Shown here one piece after another: positions 9,587 through 32,678 of a stretch of DNA of 46,426 nt. The notes under the pieces were generated by a model that searched no databases, was not told the DNA's origin, and was given only the letters and a program-made list of their open reading frames with translations. A program made the position numbers and the translations under genes. Each line of letters starts with the position of its first letter. The first letter of the stretch is position 1. The stretch comes from a virus. The stretch spans positions 1 to 46,426 of IMG/VR virus record IMGVR_UViG_3300036846_000366; one strand, given 5' to 3'.

Positions 9587-10159
9587 ATGATAGGCGAGTA
9601 TATTTCAGGATTTCTTATTACTAGCCCCGGTGGGCCAGATCAGGGTTTGCCAATTCCGCCGGTATATCCTAGCCACCCACTACCACCAGTAGAAGGGCCA
9701 GTAGATCCTGGTTATGGTGTACCACTGCCACCAGTAGTAGATAATGGTTTGCCAAATATTCCCGGTTATCATCCTGGTGGCGGCCCGATTCGTCCTACCT
9801 ATCCGGTTGATCCTGGTTACGGAGTTCCTATTACTCCCGGTGTATGGCCTAGCCCGCCGGTTGGTATATGGCCTCCTCCGCAGCCAGTATTCCCCGCGCA
9901 TCCTATTTACCCCGGTGGTGGCCCTGACAATACTTTGCCAGTACCTCCCGGTTCCCCTAGCCACCCGATTGTACTACCTCCCGGTTCAGTATGGCCTCCC
10001 TTGCCTCCACAGGTTCAGGGGAAGATACTGGCTTTTTGCTGGCTAGTAGGTATCGGCTACCGCTGGGTCGTTATTGATCCTAGCTTAAAGCCTGATATTG
10101 GCTTGCCGGGTTCAGGTAATAAACCATCAACTCCGCCAACGCCCCAACCCAAAAGTTAA
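9587..10159 (+). CDS. Pro/Gly-rich low-complexity protein between the terminase genes
   Basis: The product is 190 residues. Residues 14-145 are an irregular Pro/Gly array with recurring pieces: VDPGYGVP twice, PSHP twice, GGGP repeatedly, and GPDQGLP and GPDNTLP as variants. A short folded segment follows (KILAFCWLVGIGYRWVVIDP) and then another Pro-rich tail. AAGGAG precedes the ATG. I remember comparable proline-rich proteins beside terminases in other environmental phages but cannot name a family. It could be a flexible virion component or scaffold. Its composition makes open frames on the other strand and in other frames that are not genes. Confidence 0.6.
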   Translation: MIGEYISGFLITSPGGPDQGLPIPPVYPSHPLPPVEGPVDPGYGVPLPPVVDNGLPNIPGYHPGGGPIRPTYPVDPGYGVPITPGVWPSPPVGIWPPPQPVFPAHPIYPGGGPDNTLPVPPGSPSHPIVLPPGSVWPPLPPQVQGKILAFCWLVGIGYRWVVIDPSLKPDIGLPGSGNKPSTPPTPQPKS

Positions 10160-16551: not shown

Positions 16552-17511
16552 ATGGCAACTCAAGTTCGAGGAGCGTTCCCTAAGCTACTCGCCGCCGGTC
16601 TTAATCACATCTATATGGATGCTGTTGATACAGAACAAAGGGCGGAAGAGTATACGAAGATTTTCAACTCAGAAACAGACGACGGTGCATATGTGCAAGA
16701 TGCTAAGATGGGTACTTTTGGCCCTTTGCAAGAAAAGCCAGAAAATACCCCCGTCGCCTATACTAACATGAAACAAGGTGGTGATAAGCGGTATGTGCAT
16801 CTTACTTATGGACTCGCTGTCAGGACAAGTAGAGAACTCTACGATGACGATAAGTATGGTATTATTAAAAAGGCACCTGTCGCTTTGGCAAGGAGTGAGA
16901 GATATACTAAAGAAATGGTAGCGATGAATATTCTGAACCAAGGCTTTACTGCTAATGTTACTACCGTTGATGGAGTATCTCTTTTTAATACCCAACACCC
17001 GCTCCTAGGAGGTGCGCAGGCTACTAACATTGGCCCGGGAGTAGGTAATGTTATCTACGCAGTAGGAACCTATCCTAACAGGCCAGCTACCGATGTGGAT
17101 CTTTCGATTACTGCTCTACAGCTTGCTACTAATCATTATGAGCGTCTTATTGATAGTGAGGGGATGCCTATTACTATAAGGCTGAAGCTTATTATTATTC
17201 CTCCAGAACAGAAATTCATAGCCAGGGAGATATTAGGAAGCTCCGGTAAGACTGGCTCGGATTTCAATGATATCAACAGCATGATTGGTGAGGATTTAGC
17301 TTTTATGGTTTCTCACTATACTACTTCTCAAGGAGCATGGTGGATTGTTGCTGATAAGCAGTATCACTATCTCAAAGTCTATATGAGACAAGCTCCAAAA
17401 TCTAGCTATGACGATGATTTTGATACTGATGCGATTAAGCAGAAGACAGTTATGAGAATGAGTGCGGGAGCTACTGATTGGCTTGGTACTTGGGGTTCAA
17501 ATGGCCCATAG
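16552..17511 (+). CDS. major capsid protein (HK97-fold type)
   Basis: The product is 319 residues, typical of the short capsid proteins of podovirus-like phages. Recognisable pieces are VDTEQRAEEYTKIFNSETDD, YVHLTYGLAVRTSRELYDDD, SRSERYTKEM-like helix sequence (LARSERYTKEMVAMNIL), VDGVSLFNTQHPLLGG and IIIPPEQKFIAREILGSSGK. No delta domain or cleavage site is obvious, which fits use of a separate scaffold. AAAAGGAGATC precedes the ATG. A strong hairpin terminator or attenuator follows directly, so capsid transcripts are probably more abundant than those of later genes. Confidence 0.85.
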   Translation: MATQVRGAFPKLLAAGLNHIYMDAVDTEQRAEEYTKIFNSETDDGAYVQDAKMGTFGPLQEKPENTPVAYTNMKQGGDKRYVHLTYGLAVRTSRELYDDDKYGIIKKAPVALARSERYTKEMVAMNILNQGFTANVTTVDGVSLFNTQHPLLGGAQATNIGPGVGNVIYAVGTYPNRPATDVDLSITALQLATNHYERLIDSEGMPITIRLKLIIIPPEQKFIAREILGSSGKTGSDFNDINSMIGEDLAFMVSHYTTSQGAWWIVADKQYHYLKVYMRQAPKSSYDDDFDTDAIKQKTVMRMSAGATDWLGTWGSNGP

Positions 17512-22693: not shown

Positions 22694-25228
22694 ATGGGAC
22701 AACAAAACGTACCTACTAATACGCCACCTCCAGCTCCTACGCCTGCTACTACGCCACTTTATGACCCAGGCATTAATCCAAATGTTGGGCCTTCTTTCGA
22801 TCAGTTATTTAAAGAAAATGAAGCAAGAATAGCCCAATTAAGAGCGATGCCAGGAGCTACTGTGCCGTATATGGCGACGCCAACTCCTTCCATGAGGATG
22901 CCAGCACAGCCTACTCAACTACCTACTAACGCACCCATAAATCCTCCCGTAGCTTCTGGGGCTTCGCTCGAAGAAAGAAGAAGAGCTAGGTCACAAGGCT
23001 GGGGTAATATGATTGGTAATGCATTAGGACAAGTTGTTAATAGGAAGAACGAGCAAGATTATAATGACAAATTAACTACAGGGAAACAATTCGCTGACGC
23101 ACAAATTCATCGTGATGAAGCCTTACGAGTCCTAAAACTTTATCCAAATGATCCAGCAGCTAAGCAGGTATTAAAAGATGCGGATGCTGAAATATCGCAA
23201 ATGCAGAATGACCCAAAGACGTTTAAAATACTAAAAGGTTTAATGCCTAATTATGTAGATCCTACAAAAGATAAAGATAAACAGGCACGAGAAGCATCAT
23301 ATAATGCTGCTTTCCAATCTGATATGCAGGGATTAAATAACGATACTCTGCAACAGAGACAAGTATCTAATACTGCTGATAAAACTTCTGGATTACCACC
23401 TGCGGGAGCACAGCAGCAACAGCAGACAGTACCTAGTGCACAGCCGCAACAAGCGCAAGCACAGGGACAACCTCAACAACAGCCACAGCAAGGACTACCA
23501 CCAATTCCATTTAGAGGTGCTAACGAAGGTGCTTGGCAACCTCCGGGGCCAAAAGTAGCTATTCCTACTCAGCTACAAACACAACCACAGGAAATGGCAG
23601 TTCGACAACAACAAGAAGAAGCAGCAAGACAAATGGGTGTTGTTCGCCCTAGTGCTAGTAGTGTCGCGCAACAAAGTCCTGAATTAAGGCGTCAGTTAAC
23701 TAACGTAGGGGCTGGCGAACCTTCTAATGAAGAAAGGGCAAGAAGAGCATTAAAAGAGGCAGGAGGAGGGCAAGCAGCAGGAGCGAAAGACTGGCAGAAA
23801 TTTCATATTCCTACTCAGTTACAAATGACTCCTGAATACAAATTTGCCACTGAGGAAGAGAATAAGCTTAGGGATGATTTTATTACAAAAACTATGCCTA
23901 AAGCTTATGAGAAAGCTATTGAGATTTATAAAGAGTCTTTAACCCAAGGGAATCAGAACTATCGCAGAGCAGAGCAGGAATTTGGTGCTACTGTTCGCAA
24001 GGGAATGGATGATATAACTAGGCTTAAAATTCAAGATTCTAGAGCTGATGCTGAGATACGAAGACAAACAATAGCTTCTGCTGCTACTGTTAGAGCAGCG
24101 CAGATTAAAGCGGGAGTATTAGAAGAAGCTATGCTTTCTGATCCTAGGCTTGCTCCTTATATGAACGGGATGGTTAATAGGCAAACGAGAGATAATAATA
24201 CAGAAATAGCTAGATTACAAGCCTCGAATAAGCAGGTTCAAGCGACAATAGATGATTTAAAGCTTTCTCTAGGAAATGATCCTCTACATCCGGGGCATCC
24301 TATTAAACCAGGAAGCCAGGAAAGGCAGAAGATAGAAGGGGAAATACAAAGATTAAGTCTTGGTTTTGATCATAATAATGATGAAGTTGATAGATTACAA
24401 ACAATTAATGATAAATTGTCTGCTCTAGCTCAAGGTGCTGGTTTGAGAATCCAAGGAGGTACTGGAGGCGGTGGAGTAGGAGCTGGATTTAGCTTGCAAG
24501 CACCTCAAGGTACTAACCAAAGTTATATAAAAGGAGTTTCTGATTTAGCAAATAATCCCAGTCGCGAATCAGGAATGGCAATGACTAAGAGTTTTGAAAC
24601 TTTGCGATTAACTCCTTATAGAGACATGGGTAAAGAGAAGAGATGGGATATTGGTATTGGTCATTCATATCCGCTTGGATCTAATGTACCTAAAGAAATA
24701 ACTCCTGCTCAAGCTGAGCAGTTATATCAGCAGGATTATAGCGATGCGGAGCATAGAGTGACTAATGCGCTACAAGGAACTAAAGTTCCTATGGTGGCTG
24801 GCGCGATACTTACTGATTTAGCTTTTCAGAGCGGTTATGTACCTAAAGATTTAGTCAAGGCAATACAAGCTGGCGACTGGAATAAGGCCGCAGATGTATT
24901 ATATGAACAACGTAATAATTCTGGCCCTGATGCAGTAAAAACACTAACGCAGAGATTTGGTCTAGAATCGCAAGTACTTAGAGCATTAGCAGGAGGAGGT
25001 GGTACGGATGGCGGTGCAGGAACAGGAACAGTCAGTACCAGTGGACAGCCAGCAGGTAGCACGGCCAAACCTAGCGCGGCCATCCCAATTACGCCCGCAG
25101 AAGGAGCACTTAGCAACCTCGCCTTTAGGTACGTCTTCGGCCAAGACCCAATTAGTCCCTACATCACCCCAAGTCCTGAAGAGCCAGAACCTACAGAACC
25201 AGAACCAACAAGCGACGATAAAGAATGA
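22694..25228 (+). CDS. internal virion protein with GH24-type lysozyme domain
   Basis: The product is 844 residues. It opens with a Pro-rich N-terminus, then a Gln/Pro-rich stretch around 235-280, long helices (about 370-580) and a lysozyme domain at about 620-770. Motifs are KSFETLRLTPYRDMG with Glu635 and Asp644 at T4 lysozyme spacing (9), then RWDIGIGH, where Asp652 occupies the usual Thr position. VAGAILTDLAFQSGY follows. Such virion lysozymes open peptidoglycan during DNA entry. The tail (PSPEEPEPTEPEPTSDDKE) is acidic and disordered. The last 221 bases overlap the next gene. AGGAG precedes the start. Confidence 0.8.
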   Translation: MGQQNVPTNTPPPAPTPATTPLYDPGINPNVGPSFDQLFKENEARIAQLRAMPGATVPYMATPTPSMRMPAQPTQLPTNAPINPPVASGASLEERRRARSQGWGNMIGNALGQVVNRKNEQDYNDKLTTGKQFADAQIHRDEALRVLKLYPNDPAAKQVLKDADAEISQMQNDPKTFKILKGLMPNYVDPTKDKDKQAREASYNAAFQSDMQGLNNDTLQQRQVSNTADKTSGLPPAGAQQQQQTVPSAQPQQAQAQGQPQQQPQQGLPPIPFRGANEGAWQPPGPKVAIPTQLQTQPQEMAVRQQQEEAARQMGVVRPSASSVAQQSPELRRQLTNVGAGEPSNEERARRALKEAGGGQAAGAKDWQKFHIPTQLQMTPEYKFATEEENKLRDDFITKTMPKAYEKAIEIYKESLTQGNQNYRRAEQEFGATVRKGMDDITRLKIQDSRADAEIRRQTIASAATVRAAQIKAGVLEEAMLSDPRLAPYMNGMVNRQTRDNNTEIARLQASNKQVQATIDDLKLSLGNDPLHPGHPIKPGSQERQKIEGEIQRLSLGFDHNNDEVDRLQTINDKLSALAQGAGLRIQGGTGGGGVGAGFSLQAPQGTNQSYIKGVSDLANNPSRESGMAMTKSFETLRLTPYRDMGKEKRWDIGIGHSYPLGSNVPKEITPAQAEQLYQQDYSDAEHRVTNALQGTKVPMVAGAILTDLAFQSGYVPKDLVKAIQAGDWNKAADVLYEQRNNSGPDAVKTLTQRFGLESQVLRALAGGGGTDGGAGTGTVSTSGQPAGSTAKPSAAIPITPAEGALSNLAFRYVFGQDPISPYITPSPEEPEPTEPEPTSDDKE

Positions 25229-28200
25229 GCAAGTAACGCCTCTGATTCATAACGACAGGAAAGCGAGACTAGCTCAGACAGTAACAGCGAAAAGTCCTAA
25301 CGAACTCCCTGATTATAATTCTAGATCAGCTTGGCTTGAGAATAGGATATTTAAATTTACTAGAAATAATGATTTTCAAAACCTAAGTCCTGAAGGCCAG
25401 AGATATGCTCTAGGTCAAGTGTATGATACTTTTACGTTTCCTAACTGGCAGAAGTTTAATTATCCTATAATGCCTAAAGAGAAATGGGTAGAAGCTGCTT
25501 TAGAGACTAGTAAGCTTAATTTAATTGATCCATCTGCTAATTTTAGAAGCAATTATGAAGACTATAACCAACATAGCCTCTATGGAGGAGTAAGGGATTT
25601 TACTGCAAAAATGGCCGAAGGGATACAGTTTGGACATAGAGAATTTAATAAGGCTTATACTAGTATCTGGGACTCTGCTTTCGTCCCTGATGGCGTACCT
25701 ACTCCGCATGGGGATGAAGGATTAGCTAGGGGAGTCGCTAGGCATGTAGATACTTGGCTCGATAAAGCTGCTGGATTATTTACTACGGGAGCAAGTGTCG
25801 CTGAGTATAATTTATTCATGCATCCTTCTGAACATTGGTATTCTACAGCGGGCCAGAGAGCCTCTGGTTTTGCAGCTACGTTACCTTATTACATGGCTCT
25901 CGGCGAAGGATTAGCTGCCGGAGGTAGTAAGGTATTTGGAGGATTTCGCTACGGTGCTAGGACGATGGAGGTTCTAGGAGCACCTCGCGAGCAAGTACTT
26001 GGGCGAATAGCAGGATCTACTTTAGATGCTGGCTCGAATTTGACAAGACTTCTTGGAGCTACTAAGACAGGAGCTGTAGTAGGACTCGCACTTAAAGGGG
26101 CCGCGGAAGGATATACTAATGCGGTCATAGAAGGTGGACATACTCAGAAAGAAAAATTAACACAAGCTGCCGAGTGGGCTACTTTTAATGCTGCTTTTGG
26201 CCTAGCTGGAATTAAGGCACAAGATTGGGAACTAGGACAAAAAGCAACTAAACTACTTTCTACAATAACAGCCTACGGTGGTAAGGCTTTAGGATATTCA
26301 TTTTTTGAAAGTGGTATTAGTAGGATATTCAATAGCCAATGGGGAATAGATATAGAACCAACTATGTCCCCATACGTTCCTTCATCTGGAACTGGGCCTC
26401 CTATAGCTCCTTTAAGAGAAGGAAGAACGGGAGTACCAGATAGATTTAGTCCTGAAAGAGTAGCTCCTTTTCAACGAACACATCAAGAAATGCGTTCTGA
26501 TATAAAAGAACAATCAAGAGAAAAAGAACTGGAATATTATGACCACCTACTTCAAGATAGGCCAGGTGGGTTCGTATATGACGTTACTAGAGCAGTAGAT
26601 GAATTTAGAGATCAAATGTGGGAAAGAAGTAGATTTGAAGAACGAGAACATACCGCGAGGGGTATTACTTATAAAAGCAGATATATTCTGGGTGATTTTA
26701 CGGAAGGAAAACGATATATACAAGTTAATGCTTATGATTCCGCAGGAAATCGGATTGGGCAAGTAGATTTATACAGTACTCCTGCGAAACCTGAAGTAGC
26801 AAAAACAAGTTGGCCTAGAGTAGCAGAAGTAAATCAAAGACAAGGAATTGCTTCTGAGATATATAAAGAATTACCTTCTATAGCAAAAAGTTATGGTTTT
26901 ACAAGCCATCGTTCGGAATTTGGAAGAACTGGTGCAGGAGAAGCTTTATGGCGTTCTCTAGCTTTAGGAGGACATGCGAGGCCGTTGTTTAATCTTATGA
27001 CTCCTGCGTCAAATGCTTTAGCACATGATATGTGGTTAAGAGGAGGAACTAAACCATCTTATTACGAAATGGATTGGTCTTTAGCTAAAGATGTTCACGC
27101 ACCTAAAGGTTGGTATTCTCCCTTTGGCGACCCAGTAGGGGTTGATAATAATTTTTCATGGACTCCTTTTACTAGAGAGCAGATTCCAGAAGGTATGTTA
27201 GGCCCGTTAGAGCCTTTTGGAGAAGGTGAAGGAAGACATAATATCTACGATTCTCAGCACCCAAATGCACCACAAGCAGGGCATTTGGTTTATAATAATA
27301 AATATTATAGATACAATAACATTAATGAACTTAATAAGATGTATACGCATTTAAGATTTAAAGCAGAAGCTGAAATGAGACAACATGATCCCATAAGAGC
27401 TTCCCTAGATGCTGCTGCGGAAAGGCTTATTTATGATACGGCTTATAGGGAATTTGGGCGTCGCGATATAGCTAATTTTAATCGTGAACAACTCCAGAGG
27501 CTTTACGCTCGCTTTGCTTTTGAACTAAATAAGGCAGCAGAAGCGGCTCCTAAGAATAATCCTCAAGTAGTACTACAGGAAGCTTCTAAAGAAGTCCAAG
27601 AACACGCTGCGGCGAATCCTATGTTTGCGGGTAATGTAGAAAGAGGAAAGCAACTTGGTGTAGATATAACCCAAGTATCCGCAGAGCATCAGATACATCA
27701 AAATACAGTAGAGACTCGCCCTTCCTTCGGAAGCGTATTAGGAAAAGTCTGGAACATAGTTCGCGGTAGAGGAGGCGAAGCTGCTGGTGGGGCTATGGGG
27801 AATGTAGCCGATGATCCTAATTCTATCCCCGGCCAGATATTCACTCCAGAAGAGCAATACGAACACGAACCAGTAGAAGGCGCGGCTGCTAGTTTCGGAG
27901 TACAGCCTAATATAGTCCGTATGCTTCGCACTGCGAGAGAAGCTAATGTAGCGAAAGTAAAAACAGCTAGGGTTAATAGTAGCAGATTTATAACAGACGA
28001 ACTTGAACGAGGAGCTAGATTAAGTTCTGAAAGACGCGCTTCTGATAGAACCAGAGTAGGTCGTCGAGATATCCGTACCTATTCTGAAAGACTAAGTGAT
28101 GAACGAATGGATGATTTACTAACTGCTTTAGAGCGAAAAATGTACGGTAATGATTCAACTGAAGGTGGTGTTAATTTCGAGAAGCCATTATCAGGATTTT

Positions 28201-28793
28201 TGTTCTACTGGGGCGATAGAGCAAAACTAGGTGCGGAGCATCCTAATGTAGTAAAGAGAATAGCAGCTAATATTAGAAAATTAGCTAATAATAGAAATCT
28301 AACTTATTCCCAAATGGATAGAGCCTCCGACATGCTAGGGCGAGATTTGATCCAACTTGCAAAAATAGGTGCTACCAGAGCCGATGGTCGTATTCATGTT
28401 TTTAAATCTAATGAATATTTTGGAAATCCTAGCATCTGGCAGACTAGGTTAACTACGGAAGTAGAGCAGCATGAAATTAGGTTGCTAGAGCATATCCTCT
28501 CTGAGCATCAACCAGCTCTTACTATGATGAAGAACTTCGTCCAAGGTCAATTATTTCCAAAGCGAAATGCTTCTTATGGAATCGAGGAATGGATTAAGTG
28601 GAATAGGGCAATAGATGATGCGATGAGGGGAATGATTACGCCAGAGACGGCGCAAGAGTTAGGGCCAGAAATAGAGGCTAGAAGAGCGGCTGCTGTTAGG
28701 GCTGCTGGTACTACTCAAACTGCGACTCCTACTCCTAGACCAAGACGTAGCAGGAGAAGCCCGCAAGAACCACCACAAGGAGTACCTAACTAA
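25008..28793 (+). CDS. giant internal virion protein with embedded GNAT-like domain
   Basis: ATG 25008 is preceded by AGGAGGAGGTGGTACGG, the strongest Shine-Dalgarno in the window, and begins inside the preceding gene (221-base out-of-frame overlap). The product is 1261 residues. The first 75 are Gln/Ser/Pro-rich. A helical and Gly/Ala-rich part at about 240-450 may contact membranes (GASVAEYNLF, ALKGAAEGYTNA). About 550-655 looks like a GNAT fold (RYIQVNAYDSAGNRIGQVDL, then RVAEVNQRQGIASEIYKELP with the Q-x-x-G-I-A loop). The C-terminus is helical and basic. Size and position fit an ejection protein; the acetyltransferase likeness is inference. Confidence 0.7.
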   Translation: MAVQEQEQSVPVDSQQVARPNLARPSQLRPQKEHLATSPLGTSSAKTQLVPTSPQVLKSQNLQNQNQQATIKNEQVTPLIHNDRKARLAQTVTAKSPNELPDYNSRSAWLENRIFKFTRNNDFQNLSPEGQRYALGQVYDTFTFPNWQKFNYPIMPKEKWVEAALETSKLNLIDPSANFRSNYEDYNQHSLYGGVRDFTAKMAEGIQFGHREFNKAYTSIWDSAFVPDGVPTPHGDEGLARGVARHVDTWLDKAAGLFTTGASVAEYNLFMHPSEHWYSTAGQRASGFAATLPYYMALGEGLAAGGSKVFGGFRYGARTMEVLGAPREQVLGRIAGSTLDAGSNLTRLLGATKTGAVVGLALKGAAEGYTNAVIEGGHTQKEKLTQAAEWATFNAAFGLAGIKAQDWELGQKATKLLSTITAYGGKALGYSFFESGISRIFNSQWGIDIEPTMSPYVPSSGTGPPIAPLREGRTGVPDRFSPERVAPFQRTHQEMRSDIKEQSREKELEYYDHLLQDRPGGFVYDVTRAVDEFRDQMWERSRFEEREHTARGITYKSRYILGDFTEGKRYIQVNAYDSAGNRIGQVDLYSTPAKPEVAKTSWPRVAEVNQRQGIASEIYKELPSIAKSYGFTSHRSEFGRTGAGEALWRSLALGGHARPLFNLMTPASNALAHDMWLRGGTKPSYYEMDWSLAKDVHAPKGWYSPFGDPVGVDNNFSWTPFTREQIPEGMLGPLEPFGEGEGRHNIYDSQHPNAPQAGHLVYNNKYYRYNNINELNKMYTHLRFKAEAEMRQHDPIRASLDAAAERLIYDTAYREFGRRDIANFNREQLQRLYARFAFELNKAAEAAPKNNPQVVLQEASKEVQEHAAANPMFAGNVERGKQLGVDITQVSAEHQIHQNTVETRPSFGSVLGKVWNIVRGRGGEAAGGAMGNVADDPNSIPGQIFTPEEQYEHEPVEGAAASFGVQPNIVRMLRTAREANVAKVKTARVNSSRFITDELERGARLSSERRASDRTRVGRRDIRTYSERLSDERMDDLLTALERKMYGNDSTEGGVNFEKPLSGFLFYWGDRAKLGAEHPNVVKRIAANIRKLANNRNLTYSQMDRASDMLGRDLIQLAKIGATRADGRIHVFKSNEYFGNPSIWQTRLTTEVEQHEIRLLEHILSEHQPALTMMKNFVQGQLFPKRNASYGIEEWIKWNRAIDDAMRGMITPETAQELGPEIEARRAAAVRAAGTTQTATPTPRPRRSRRSPQEPPQGVPN

Positions 28794-30685
28794 TGCCTGA
28801 GATGCCTAAATTCGAGATAGATCCTTCTGTATCTAGAAGGGCATTTGAAGCCATAGAATCCAGTTTCAAACCATCTGGATGGGCTTCTAGGATGCTCGAT
28901 TCTCTAGGTCAAAAAGGGCTATTACCCGGTGGCTCACAGAATAGAATCATAGATGGTACAGCGAGTTTAGCTAGTACTGTCGGGCATAATTTAGGTCGCT
29001 TTGATACTATCGCTACTGGAGCATCTGGCAAGTGGGGTCGTGATATGTGGCGACAGGTTTGGATGGAGGGAAAGAACCAGCAGGCTATGATTAATAATCA
29101 TAATGCCTCAATAGGAAAACAAGTTCCTGAGCATATAGTACGTAATAACGCTATGCGAGCAGCGAATAAAGCGGTTTCTGGCCCTAATAACGAAGCTTGG
29201 GTAGGTTTCTTAAGGGCTGTAATAAAGGAGCATGGCCCAGTATATGGCCCACAAAAAGCAGCTTTTTTAGCTACTAACCTCCAATTAATGATGGGCGATC
29301 AGCCTTACTCACCTGTAAAGTTTTCTTATGATGGGGATGGTAATATCAAGTGGGAACCAGAAGGCCGGTATGAGACTAGTGATTTGTTTAAAAATGTAAT
29401 GGGGCATCAAGATTTATATGAGGCTTTAAAAGGTAAATATCATCCTGCGAGGCCGCCGAGTACATTAACTAAAGGAATGTCTCAGCTAACTCGATGGGGG
29501 CATTATTCCTTAGCTCCTGCTGCCGCTCTAAAGCACATGGCGCAAGTACCAGGTCTTTTATCCAATATGACCAGCTTCCAAAATGGTTATGTGACTCTAG
29601 GAGCTTTGCATGGTACTGGACGTGCGGATGCAATAGCTCTGCTACATAATAACAACGCCGGAGCTGAGATGTTCACGGATATACAAGCAGATGAGCTTAG
29701 GTATAAGCTCGGATGGTATTCTAAGGCGAAATGGTTAAATCCTAAAGTAGGTAGGTGGCTCGCGCAACAAGGAGCTACGCCGGGTTTGAAAGGCTTGCGT
29801 TATAGATTAATCCCCGCGGCAGGTGCTCAGGGGAATTTTGTACTACATGAAGCTGCTACAATACTAGAGCGTTATCCTAATGATGTAGCCGCTAAAATTA
29901 ACTTAAAATTTCTAGGCTTAGAGCCTTCTGAGGTAATGCACGAATGGTATTCAAATAATAGAGCCTTCGCTAGAGATGCTAATGGCGTAAGCGAAACTAT
30001 AAAGACTGCGATTAATAATAACATCGAACAACGAGTTTTCTTCAATAACCCAGGTCTTCGCTCAGCCCTTGCACTCTCTCCTATGGGACGAATCGGGACA
30101 GTATATCACTGGATGGGCCAGAACGAAAAAAGTTGGTTTCAGAGAGAATTAGTTAGGGCGTATCAAAGCAAAAATCCAGTTCAGATAGCTTCCTTGATCG
30201 CGACTATGGGAATCCTTTATCCAGGGACTCATTGGATTATGGCGAAACTTAATGAAGCATGGAGCGGAAAAACTAGCCCGATGCAAGCTGCTAAGGAAAT
30301 GGTAGACCCAACTGAGGATGCTCAGATGCAAGCTCATATACTACAAACCTATGTAGATATGATGGGCGTCGGCGTAGAATGGTCTAAAATAAATGCTGCC
30401 GCGAATCATCAATTACTTGAGGAAGGCGTAGGAGCGCATATTAAGGCTGGAGGTAATTTAATCCAAGACTCCACCGCTGGTGCTGTCGGTATCTTTGAAG
30501 GCGAGCCTCATAAAGCATATCCTTTCTATCGTGACGTATTAGAAGATATGCCATTCCACGTAGGAGGTTGGGCTGCTCATACTTGGTTCCCAACTAGGAA
30601 AGAAATCGAAGCTAAGAAGCCGATGACTTCCAAACGAAGAGCTGCTCAAAAGGCAGCGGAAAAACGTAAGTACTCGCAACAGTAA
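28793..30685 (+). CDS. large internal virion / ejection protein
   Basis: The product is 630 residues, largely helical. Amphipathic and small-residue segments include RWGHYSLAPAAALKHMAQVP and RIGTVYHWMGQNEKSWFQRE, with hydrophobic IASLIATMGILYPGTHWIMA near residue 470 that could insert in a membrane. It ends in a basic tail (TSKRRAAQKAAEKRKYSQQ). The start overlaps the previous stop (TAATG), so the two are translationally coupled and are probably partners, as with the multi-protein ejection channels of T7 and P22. No enzymatic motif is seen. Confidence 0.6.
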   Translation: MPEMPKFEIDPSVSRRAFEAIESSFKPSGWASRMLDSLGQKGLLPGGSQNRIIDGTASLASTVGHNLGRFDTIATGASGKWGRDMWRQVWMEGKNQQAMINNHNASIGKQVPEHIVRNNAMRAANKAVSGPNNEAWVGFLRAVIKEHGPVYGPQKAAFLATNLQLMMGDQPYSPVKFSYDGDGNIKWEPEGRYETSDLFKNVMGHQDLYEALKGKYHPARPPSTLTKGMSQLTRWGHYSLAPAAALKHMAQVPGLLSNMTSFQNGYVTLGALHGTGRADAIALLHNNNAGAEMFTDIQADELRYKLGWYSKAKWLNPKVGRWLAQQGATPGLKGLRYRLIPAAGAQGNFVLHEAATILERYPNDVAAKINLKFLGLEPSEVMHEWYSNNRAFARDANGVSETIKTAINNNIEQRVFFNNPGLRSALALSPMGRIGTVYHWMGQNEKSWFQRELVRAYQSKNPVQIASLIATMGILYPGTHWIMAKLNEAWSGKTSPMQAAKEMVDPTEDAQMQAHILQTYVDMMGVGVEWSKINAAANHQLLEEGVGAHIKAGGNLIQDSTAGAVGIFEGEPHKAYPFYRDVLEDMPFHVGGWAAHTWFPTRKEIEAKKPMTSKRRAAQKAAEKRKYSQQ

Positions 30686-30711: not shown

Positions 30712-31089
30712 ATGCACGTTATGCTATCGAAGGAACAGTTTGAAGCCCTAGTAAAGAAATCTGAGGGAAAAGTGGAGGTAAAACCTCCAGCTATTTTTGT
30801 GAAACCAGATGACGATACTCACGGGACTATTAATACAGATGACGTATCCGTAGAGTATTTCTATAACGAACTAGAGCAGAGGCTTTATTTTTCCGTTATC
30901 AAAAGACACTCCCTTGCTGCTTACGTCGCGCCAGATAATATCTGTAGCACGTACGTTATGGAAATACTATCAGATATCGCCGCCACCTCAGTCAAGAAAC
31001 CTACTAGCAATGACGGAGGAGGAGATAAGAAGTCTAATGCTGGAGGTTCGGGAGAGGAAGCAAAAAAAGAACAAACCCAGTCGGTGTAG
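30712..31089 (+). CDS. hypothetical protein with -1 frameshift signal near its 3' end
   Basis: The product is 125 residues. A compact N-terminal part (MLSKEQFEALVKKSEGKVEV) leads to a mixed domain (VSVEYFYNELEQRLYFSVIK) and a disordered Gly/Ser/Asp-rich tail. At codons 117-119 it reads GCA AAA AAA, a slippery A-AAA-AAA heptamer followed by a stem-loop. A -1 shift would bypass TAG 31089 and add 38 residues ending at 31184, giving a 157-residue product. AAGGAAT precedes the ATG. The role is unknown. It lies between ejection proteins and the ATP-grasp/fibre genes. Confidence 0.6.
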   Translation: MHVMLSKEQFEALVKKSEGKVEVKPPAIFVKPDDDTHGTINTDDVSVEYFYNELEQRLYFSVIKRHSLAAYVAPDNICSTYVMEILSDIAATSVKKPTSNDGGGDKKSNAGGSGEEAKKEQTQSV

Positions 31090-31106
31090 CTCCTAACCCG
31101 ATTGGG
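31062..31106 (+). promoter_or_regulatory. programmed -1 ribosomal frameshift signal (candidate)
   Basis: Seven A at 31062-31068 are in phase as A-AAA-AAA relative to ATG 30712. A 7-base spacer follows. Then a 9-bp stem, CCCAGTCGG (31076-31084) with CCGATTGGG (31098-31106), has one G-U pair and a 13-base loop. The zero-frame TAG (31087-31089) lies in the loop. GAGAGGAAG just upstream could act as a stimulating Shine-Dalgarno. The -1 frame continues RTNPVGVAPNPIGTPTKLPT, RMGVYKHPVAPKFKPTRK to TAA 31184. It has no start codon of its own until its last 17 codons. Confidence 0.65.
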
Positions 31107-31198
31107 ACTCCTACAAAGCTTCCAACCAGAATGGGTGTTTATAAACATCCTGTCGCGCCAAAATTTAAGCCAACTAGAAAGTAAGAAGGAGAGATAAT

Positions 31199-31357
31199 AT
31201 GAGCGGTCAATCAGCAAGAGAAGGTATTGCAGCGGTTAAGGCATGTATTGATAAAATCGAAACAAACCAGCAAACGAAGCCTTTTGGAAAAAACTCAGGA
31301 GCAGAAACGAATCAGCAGTTAAAAAAGACTAATGAGAAGCAGCCTTATTACAAGTAA
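31199..31357 (+). CDS. small hypothetical protein (52 residues)
   Basis: ATG 31199 follows GAAGGAGAGATAAT, a strong ribosome site, 14 bases after the end of the -1 frame of the preceding gene. The translation is MSGQSAREGIAAVKACIDKI, then a Gln/Asn/Lys-rich tail ending EKQPYYK. It is a short helix plus a polar tail. It is too short for standard cut-offs, but position and ribosome site support it. No family is recognised. Confidence 0.55.
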   Translation: MSGQSAREGIAAVKACIDKIETNQQTKPFGKNSGAETNQQLKKTNEKQPYYK

Positions 31358-31397
31358 TAAAAACGAATTAGGAAGCGGAGCTTGGAGCGGAGCGGAT

Positions 31398-32678
31398 ATG
31401 CCATTAAGAATTGCATTTAATAGCTATACTGGTTGCGGAGCATGGTTCATCCTTCGTCTTCTTGAGGAAGGCCATTCTGTTGATTACTTCATATCAAAAC
31501 CAGATTGCGAAAATATTCTTAATGGTATTATCCCCTCGCCAGTTATTATTGACCGATCTAGCTTACCTAATTATTCTAGATATGATCTTTCTATATTTGA
31601 TACCACTGGGAGAAAAAAGCAAGCGGAGTATAGTGCTGATCTTTGTCCTACTATTGGGGATGGTAATTTTAATTGTGAGCTAGAGGATAATAGGGAATTT
31701 GGCATTAAAATAATGGAGGATTGCGGGATTTTAGTACCTCCATATGAAAAATTCTCTGACCCAAAGGAGGGGAAAAAATATGTACGGACTACAGGGAAAT
31801 GCTATGTCTATAAACCTGACACTCCCGCAGGCCAAGAGCAAGATACTGATACTACTTTTGTTAGTTGTTCCGTCGAAGATATGCTGGAACATATTGATAA
31901 GCTTTTTGAAGATAGTAAGAGACAACCTTTTATTCTACAAGAGGTTATTAAAGGATGCGAGGTGTCTACAGAAGGCTGGTTTAATGGGGAAGATTTCTTC
32001 ATTAGAAATTCCACTCTCGAACTTAAGAAATTTATGAACGACGACAAGGGGCCAGCGACAGGATGTTCTGGAAATATGGTTTTTATCCACGGTTTAGGCG
32101 AGCCAAAGATTTATCGCGAAGGTTTGCGAAAAACCAAAGATTATTTAAAAGAAATAGGTTTTACTGGGATGCTAGATTTAAATTCCATAGTATCTGACGA
32201 TAAGCTTTATGGAATCGAATGGACGCCTAGATTCGGATATGATGCTACGGCGGCTTTAGCTACTATGTATGCGGGAGATTTCGGTAATTTGCTAGAAGCA
32301 ACCGCGAGAGGTGAGAGGCCGGAGCAGTCTTATAGAGCTGAGTTCTGTGCCTCTGTCCGGCTTAGTATTCCTCCTTATCCAGTAAAAGACCGGGATATTA
32401 AAGAGCGCGGAAATGTAATAGAAGGCATTGACGAGGAAGATTTTTGTTATACCTATCTCTATGATGTAGAGAAAACCAATGGCTGCTTACATAGCGCAGG
32501 ACATAATGGCTTTATCGCCTCCCCTATGGGAGTGGGAAATACTCCCGGCGAAGCTTTCCATGATGTTTCTAAGAGAGTAGATCATGTAAAAGCAGCCGGG
32601 TTGCAATATAGAACCGATGTAGAAAAGAAAATTCTTAAGCGGTATGCGGAACTCCAAGAAGGCGGGTGGCTAAGATGA
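31398..32678 (+). CDS. ATP-grasp enzyme, PurD-like
   Basis: I start at ATG 31398 (426 residues) after GGAGCGGAGCGGAT; the longer frame from 31332 overlaps the previous gene. N-terminal MPLRIAFNSYTGCGAWFILR is a nucleotide-fold start. Then come TTGKCYVYKPDTPAG (Lys139, ATP grip), FILQEVIKGCEVSTEGWFNG, and GFTGMLDLNSIV with LYGIEWTPRFGYDA, matching the end of the ATP-grasp fold of phosphoribosylamine-glycine ligase. PurD has EFN-x-RFGD at the last motif; here it is EWTPRFGYD (Asn replaced by Thr). ATP-grasp enzymes join a carboxylate to an amine or thiol using ATP. The substrate is unknown. Its stop overlaps the fibre start (ATGA). Confidence 0.75.
   Translation: MPLRIAFNSYTGCGAWFILRLLEEGHSVDYFISKPDCENILNGIIPSPVIIDRSSLPNYSRYDLSIFDTTGRKKQAEYSADLCPTIGDGNFNCELEDNREFGIKIMEDCGILVPPYEKFSDPKEGKKYVRTTGKCYVYKPDTPAGQEQDTDTTFVSCSVEDMLEHIDKLFEDSKRQPFILQEVIKGCEVSTEGWFNGEDFFIRNSTLELKKFMNDDKGPATGCSGNMVFIHGLGEPKIYREGLRKTKDYLKEIGFTGMLDLNSIVSDDKLYGIEWTPRFGYDATAALATMYAGDFGNLLEATARGERPEQSYRAEFCASVRLSIPPYPVKDRDIKERGNVIEGIDEEDFCYTYLYDVEKTNGCLHSAGHNGFIASPMGVGNTPGEAFHDVSKRVDHVKAAGLQYRTDVEKKILKRYAELQEGGWLR

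Follow-up and report, generated by a model that had tools for sequence, protein, structure and literature searches.

The open reading frame at positions 30712–31089 of an environmental phage sequence raises the question of whether its translation always ends at its own stop codon, or whether a run of seven adenines shortly before that stop allows a second, longer protein to be made. The sequence is the IMG/VR virus record IMGVR_UViG_3300036846_000366, analysed here over its whole length of 46,426 bases (the window), and it has no close named phage. The terminase encoded in the window shares 21–24% identity with its counterparts in Pf-WMP3, A-4L and related cyanophages, which we take to be podoviruses. 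An SU10-type adaptor, a lysozyme-domain protein and a major head protein (16552–17511) are also encoded, a setting that fits a short-tailed-like phage. The gene of interest, which encodes 125 residues and, like the elements of its shift site and the next ORF described below, lies on the plus strand, is preceded directly by an AAAGGA ribosome site. It is situated after the long ORFs at 22694–30685 and before ORFs for a 52-residue protein and an ATP-grasp enzyme. A preliminary description of this DNA had placed it between ejection and fibre genes; a fibre-like ORF does follow, only past the 52-residue and ATP-grasp ORFs, and the ‘ejection’ label is without a family match.

Direct codon reading of the 3′ end of the gene gives GCA (31060) AAA AAA GAA CAA ACC CAG TCG GTG TAG (31087–31089). 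The heptamer A_AAA_AAA (31062–31068), which is followed by G, therefore stands in phase as X_XXY_YYZ close to the zero-frame stop, the TAG being reached after six further codons, as in a bacterial -1 frameshift cassette. A stem-loop is predicted by folding at 31076–31106, 7 nt 3′ of the heptamer and with the zero-frame TAG inside it. Its stem pairs CCCAGTCGG (31076–31084) with CCGATTGGG (31098–31106) over 9 bp, and two inner pairs beyond a bulge bring the total to 11 bp. In the -1 frame, the sequence is open for 38 codons (31068–31184, including the TAA at 31182–31184) and translates as RTNPVGVAPNPIGTPTKLPTRMGVYKHPVAPKFKPTRK. This TAA is located directly 5′ of GAAGGAG and the ATG (31199) of the next ORF. 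The computed length of the fused product is 157 residues, and residues 1–119 are common to the 125-residue and shifted forms. The zero-frame part up to the shift point is acidic (pI 5.3) with a Gly/Ser-rich linker, and the -1 extension is strongly basic (pI 11.8) with 21% proline. The open stretch of the -1 frame does not reach upstream of 31038, and its sole ATG (31131) is not preceded by a Shine-Dalgarno sequence. On these points the preliminary description was accurate throughout: the in-phase heptamer, the 7-base spacer and 9-bp stem, their closeness to the TAG, the 38 open codons ending directly before the next ribosome site, the lack of a useful -1 start and the fused length were all found as it had given them.

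The site also stands out against the rest of the window. In a scan of 43 ORFs (39.9 kb) it was the sole in-phase A_AAA_AAA, and among the listed shift-prone heptamers it alone both lies close to the end of its gene and leads into a lengthy open -1 frame (38 codons; elsewhere 16 at most). The 45-nt segment starting 5–7 nt past the heptamer has a folding energy of -16.6 kcal/mol, within the lowest 0.55% of late-region segments, and none of 300 shuffles was equally stable (z = -3.3; z = -2.0 for a longer segment). An intrinsic terminator was ruled out as the identity of this stem, there being no T-run after it and no match at 31076–31106 in a terminator scan. A pseudoknot between the loop AGCU and AAGCUU near 31118 was considered and would comprise merely 4 bp.

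A purine-rich, Shine-Dalgarno-like sequence had been noted just upstream of the heptamer in the preliminary description. Indeed, GAGAGGAAG is present at 31052–31060; however, GGAGGT at 31042–31047 pairs more strongly with the anti-Shine-Dalgarno and gives the strongest such duplex at the site (-10.5 kcal/mol, in the lowest 2.2% of background). At 1–3 nt from the heptamer, GAGAGGAAG is too near for -1 stimulation and was ruled out as the main stimulator. GGAGGT ends 14 nt 5′ of the heptamer, which is at the edge of the 9–14 nt spacing range described for -1 stimulation by internal Shine-Dalgarno sequences (PMC5009743). This optional element of the cassette is probably a stimulator of the shift in the window phage, and in that phage only, as is discussed below.

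Comparison with a relative bears most directly on whether these elements function together. Searching with the portal protein brought up 18 related fragments, among them IMGVR_UViG_3300043765_000011 (here G001), which spans the region and is the single relative found to carry the gene. Its homologue of the 125-residue protein is 48–53% identical over residues 1–97, depending on the alignment. On the minus strand of the G001 locus (L022) this gene ends GCA AAA AAA GCA GAG CCA CAA CCA GCG TAA, such that the ten bases GCAAAAAAAG are identical and in phase in the two phages and the stop again follows six codons on. With Ala-Lys-Lys held fixed, codon usage would predict GCA AAA AAA in just 8.7% and 8.4% of cases in the two genomes, so the A run is no mere by-product of the amino acids encoded. 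A stem is again predicted, 5 nt past the heptamer, by pairing of GCCACAAC with GTTGTGGC (11 pairs including the flanking AGA/UCU), and its z value of -4.6 is better than that of the window, with none of 300 shuffles equally stable. Both genomes thus have a downstream RNA structure at about 5–8 nt, and since the stem sequences differ between them the structure has been kept while its letters changed. Examination of anti-Shine-Dalgarno pairing revealed no internal Shine-Dalgarno at the G001 shift site, and so this element is not conserved.

The -1 frame of G001 reads SRATTSVNKEEKPVVASTLHPPIKMGVFKAPPVPPEKETKH... and resembles that of the window. Alignment of the two -1 peptides scored 49 (3 of 2000 shuffles) vs at most 31 for all other frame pairs, although proline-rich composition lifts peptide scores of this kind and an unrelated proline-rich segment scored 47. 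The syntenic -1 segment ranked first of the 4,446 six-frame segments of G001 DNA examined, and a comparison with 18,612 segments of further related phages gave no score as high as that of the window and G001 pair. What convinces in the -1 homology is the common block MGV[YF]K.P..P at the syntenic place (MGVYK in the window, MGVFK in G001). Conservation of -1 coding is seen in one relative. In G001 no stop closes the -1 frame where the gene ends, and translation across the next ORF would give a 182-residue fusion; the two phages therefore share just the first half of the extension, and the C-terminus of the fusion is not conserved. Within L022 (1899–2180, minus strand) the -1 frame is open for 93 codons past the heptamer, through the whole of the next ORF, and stops directly 5′ of the ATP-grasp start, which creates a second overlapping reading.

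The methionine that begins the conserved -1 block in both phages could be taken to indicate that the -1 frame is expressed alone, as a short peptide from ATG 31131 and without any frameshift. However, neither the window ATG nor its G001 counterpart is preceded by a Shine-Dalgarno sequence, the resulting window peptide would be only 17 residues long, weak homology extends also to the 5′ side of the -1 ATG, and the heptamer and stem would be left unexplained. Expression from this ATG is therefore scarcely credible.

Conservation in G001 bears equally on whether the site is accidental or an artefact, be it an A7 that fell close to the end of a gene by chance, a miscounted homopolymer (the true run being A8 and the ORF continuous) or a phase-variable A7/A8 tract. 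The run length is known here from the record sequences of two genomes. Against this, the genomes are divergent and come from separate records, yet have A7 at the equivalent place, with an equal distance to the stop and a stem, and chance is low by several independent measures. We consider coincidence or artefact very improbable. The preliminary description had named as the case against itself relatives that keep the protein and lose both the run and the -1 frame; in G001 the opposite was seen, the heptamer, its phase, the stop distance, the stem spacing and a homologous -1 peptide all being kept at about 50% protein identity.

The main rival explanation is transcriptional slippage, in which RNA polymerase would add an A within A7 and normal translation would then yield a 157-residue fusion identical to that of a frameshift. 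An A7 run is able to slip, and the depletion of such runs in all frames in Escherichia coli, possibly through slippage (PMC4066793), was counted in its favour. Conservation of the A run in G001 is compatible with slippage as well. However, A7 is, as a matter of general knowledge, short for efficient polymerase slippage, and a slipping polymerase needs neither codon phase nor a stem at 5–7 nt, whereas both phages keep the two features with stems of differing sequence. Transcriptional slippage is for these reasons unlikely, though less so than the readings above.

A functional -1 programmed ribosomal frameshift, giving 125-residue and ∼157-residue forms, is very probably the correct reading of this site, and the interpretation offered in the preliminary description is supported by conservation in the one relative. 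We infer from the sequences the slipping itself, the ribosome as its place, its efficiency and the use of both products. In the proposed mechanism, most ribosomes would end at the TAG at 31087 and release the 125-residue protein. A ribosome paused by the stem-loop at 31076–31106, with lysine tRNAs on AAA AAA, could in a fraction of cases re-pair one base back at 31062–31068 and enter the -1 frame, a slip that GGAGGT upstream would probably aid in the window phage. The shifted ribosomes would read on to the TAA at 31182 and produce the 157-residue protein with its basic, proline-rich tail. The most likely use of the shift would be to keep two forms of a small late protein (of the virion or of its assembly) at a fixed ratio, the tail serving as a sub-stoichiometric interaction module. 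Our best guess is of a small virion-associated or assembly protein, a minority of whose copies must carry the tail.

The likeness to bacterial -1 site architecture that had been claimed is borne out, the heptamer and stem being of the dnaX/insertion sequence type. The E. coli dnaX site (A_AAA_AAG) likewise has a poly-A heptamer read by lysine tRNA and a hairpin of ∼11 bp located 5–7 nt 3′, reported as 11 bp with a 5-nt spacer (PMC8861025), as well as an internal Shine-Dalgarno, which in the window is 14 nt 5′ (PMC5009743). The two differ in that the dnaX heptamer ends in AAG and its shift truncates the product, whereas the window heptamer ends in AAA and its shift extends the product; homology between the two proteins is not to be expected. 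In bacteria, -1 shifting at A_AAA_AAA with a stem-loop has been proven for an insertion element (PMC4066793, A_AAA_AAA_1 cluster, citing IS150 work). The heptamer is identical and the stimulator is again a stem-loop; however, the window gene is no transposase gene, and no transposase was recognised adjoining it.

Among phage systems, gene 10 of T7/T3 (10A/10B) is alike in being a late gene of a short-tailed phage with a short C-terminal extension made by frameshifting. T7, however, uses a G_GU-type slip codon with a distant element (PMC5009743), and the window gene does not encode a coat protein: the major head protein is that at 16552–17511, and 30712–31089 has no such match. In lambda G/GT, too, ribosomes shift to -1 close to the end of a small late gene and make two products in a ratio. 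G/GT adjoins the tape measure from upstream, whereas the window gene has no tape measure after it, follows the long ORFs and has no chaperone match in PHROG, Pfam or NCBIfam, and so the earlier statement that this is not the tail-assembly-chaperone case holds by position. A frameshift-appended Ig-like domain was likewise rejected, the 38-residue basic, proline-rich extension being too short and without a family match.

The distribution of the gene was surveyed through its surroundings. About 80 related IMG/VR records share the ATP-grasp gene, and the window and G001 alone were found to have the frameshift gene as well; none was found in ∼75 of the records sharing the ATP-grasp gene, an empty result that is weak in this search. 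Since it was found just in these two, the gene is, as far as the sequences indicate, an accessory gene. A first round of direct scans with the 125-residue protein gave no match, nor did comparison of this protein, its homologue, the -1 peptide or the DNA of the region with named phages, or of the family alignment with genome contigs. When viral contigs were searched with two patterns and the family alignment, G001 was the sole match. The region and protein had no match in Rfam or PDB sequences, the 125-residue protein had no meaningful match in Pfam, PHROG, NCBIfam or PDB sequences, and no family match was found for the -1 extension. An AlphaFold2 model of the 125-residue protein from a two-sequence input was unusable (pLDDT 43).

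Further features of these genomes were observed. The next ORF (31199–31357; 52 residues, MSGQ...IETNQQTKPFG) is conserved family-wide, and with a GARS-like ATP-grasp enzyme this MSGQ/MAGQ-type ORF occupies 31199–32678, 3′ of a late ORF. The pair is kept in many of the ∼80 records, the enzyme being an unusual one for a structural operon, and most of the closer records among those listed have a late ORF with an MSGQ/MAGQ-type small ORF directly 3′ of it, then ATP-grasp. Elsewhere in the window, the lysozyme-domain ORF (22694–25228) overlaps the next large ORF (ATG 25008 or GTG 24999, to 28793) by ∼220–230 nt. The two ORFs use different frames across the overlap (24999–25228), and the first gene contains a strong AGGAGGAGG ribosome site. 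G001 has this overlap as well, at 233 nt (L022 7055/6823, minus strand), and there GGAGGAGG precedes a GTG start; the long dual-coding overlap is thus conserved. Directly 5′ of the large terminase lies a 190-residue ORF that is very rich in proline and glycine (9587–10159), and the relative has a similar proline-rich reading (L002, near 1083–1187).

Overall, the mechanism is well known in other genes, and the gene family in which it is seen here appears to be new. The chances are about even that short-tailed-like environmental phages have here a new protein family, with an optional gene situated 3′ of a long late ORF and 5′ of the conserved 52-residue/ATP-grasp pair, in which a -1 shift adds a basic, proline-rich tail to a small acidic protein at a set ratio. 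Tail-assembly chaperones make up the bulk of annotated phage frameshifts, with 2397 of the 2476 joined genes in the SEA-PHAGES training set (PMC10885494). If true, the present case would be a use of frameshifting by phages that is separate from the tail chaperone, the coat protein and the Ig-like domain. The shift site is compact and could readily be tested with a standard reporter. Good support for a -1 site in a late gene of a short-tailed-like phage that is unrelated to the chaperones suggests that further trans-frame products of small phage genes escape gene callers.
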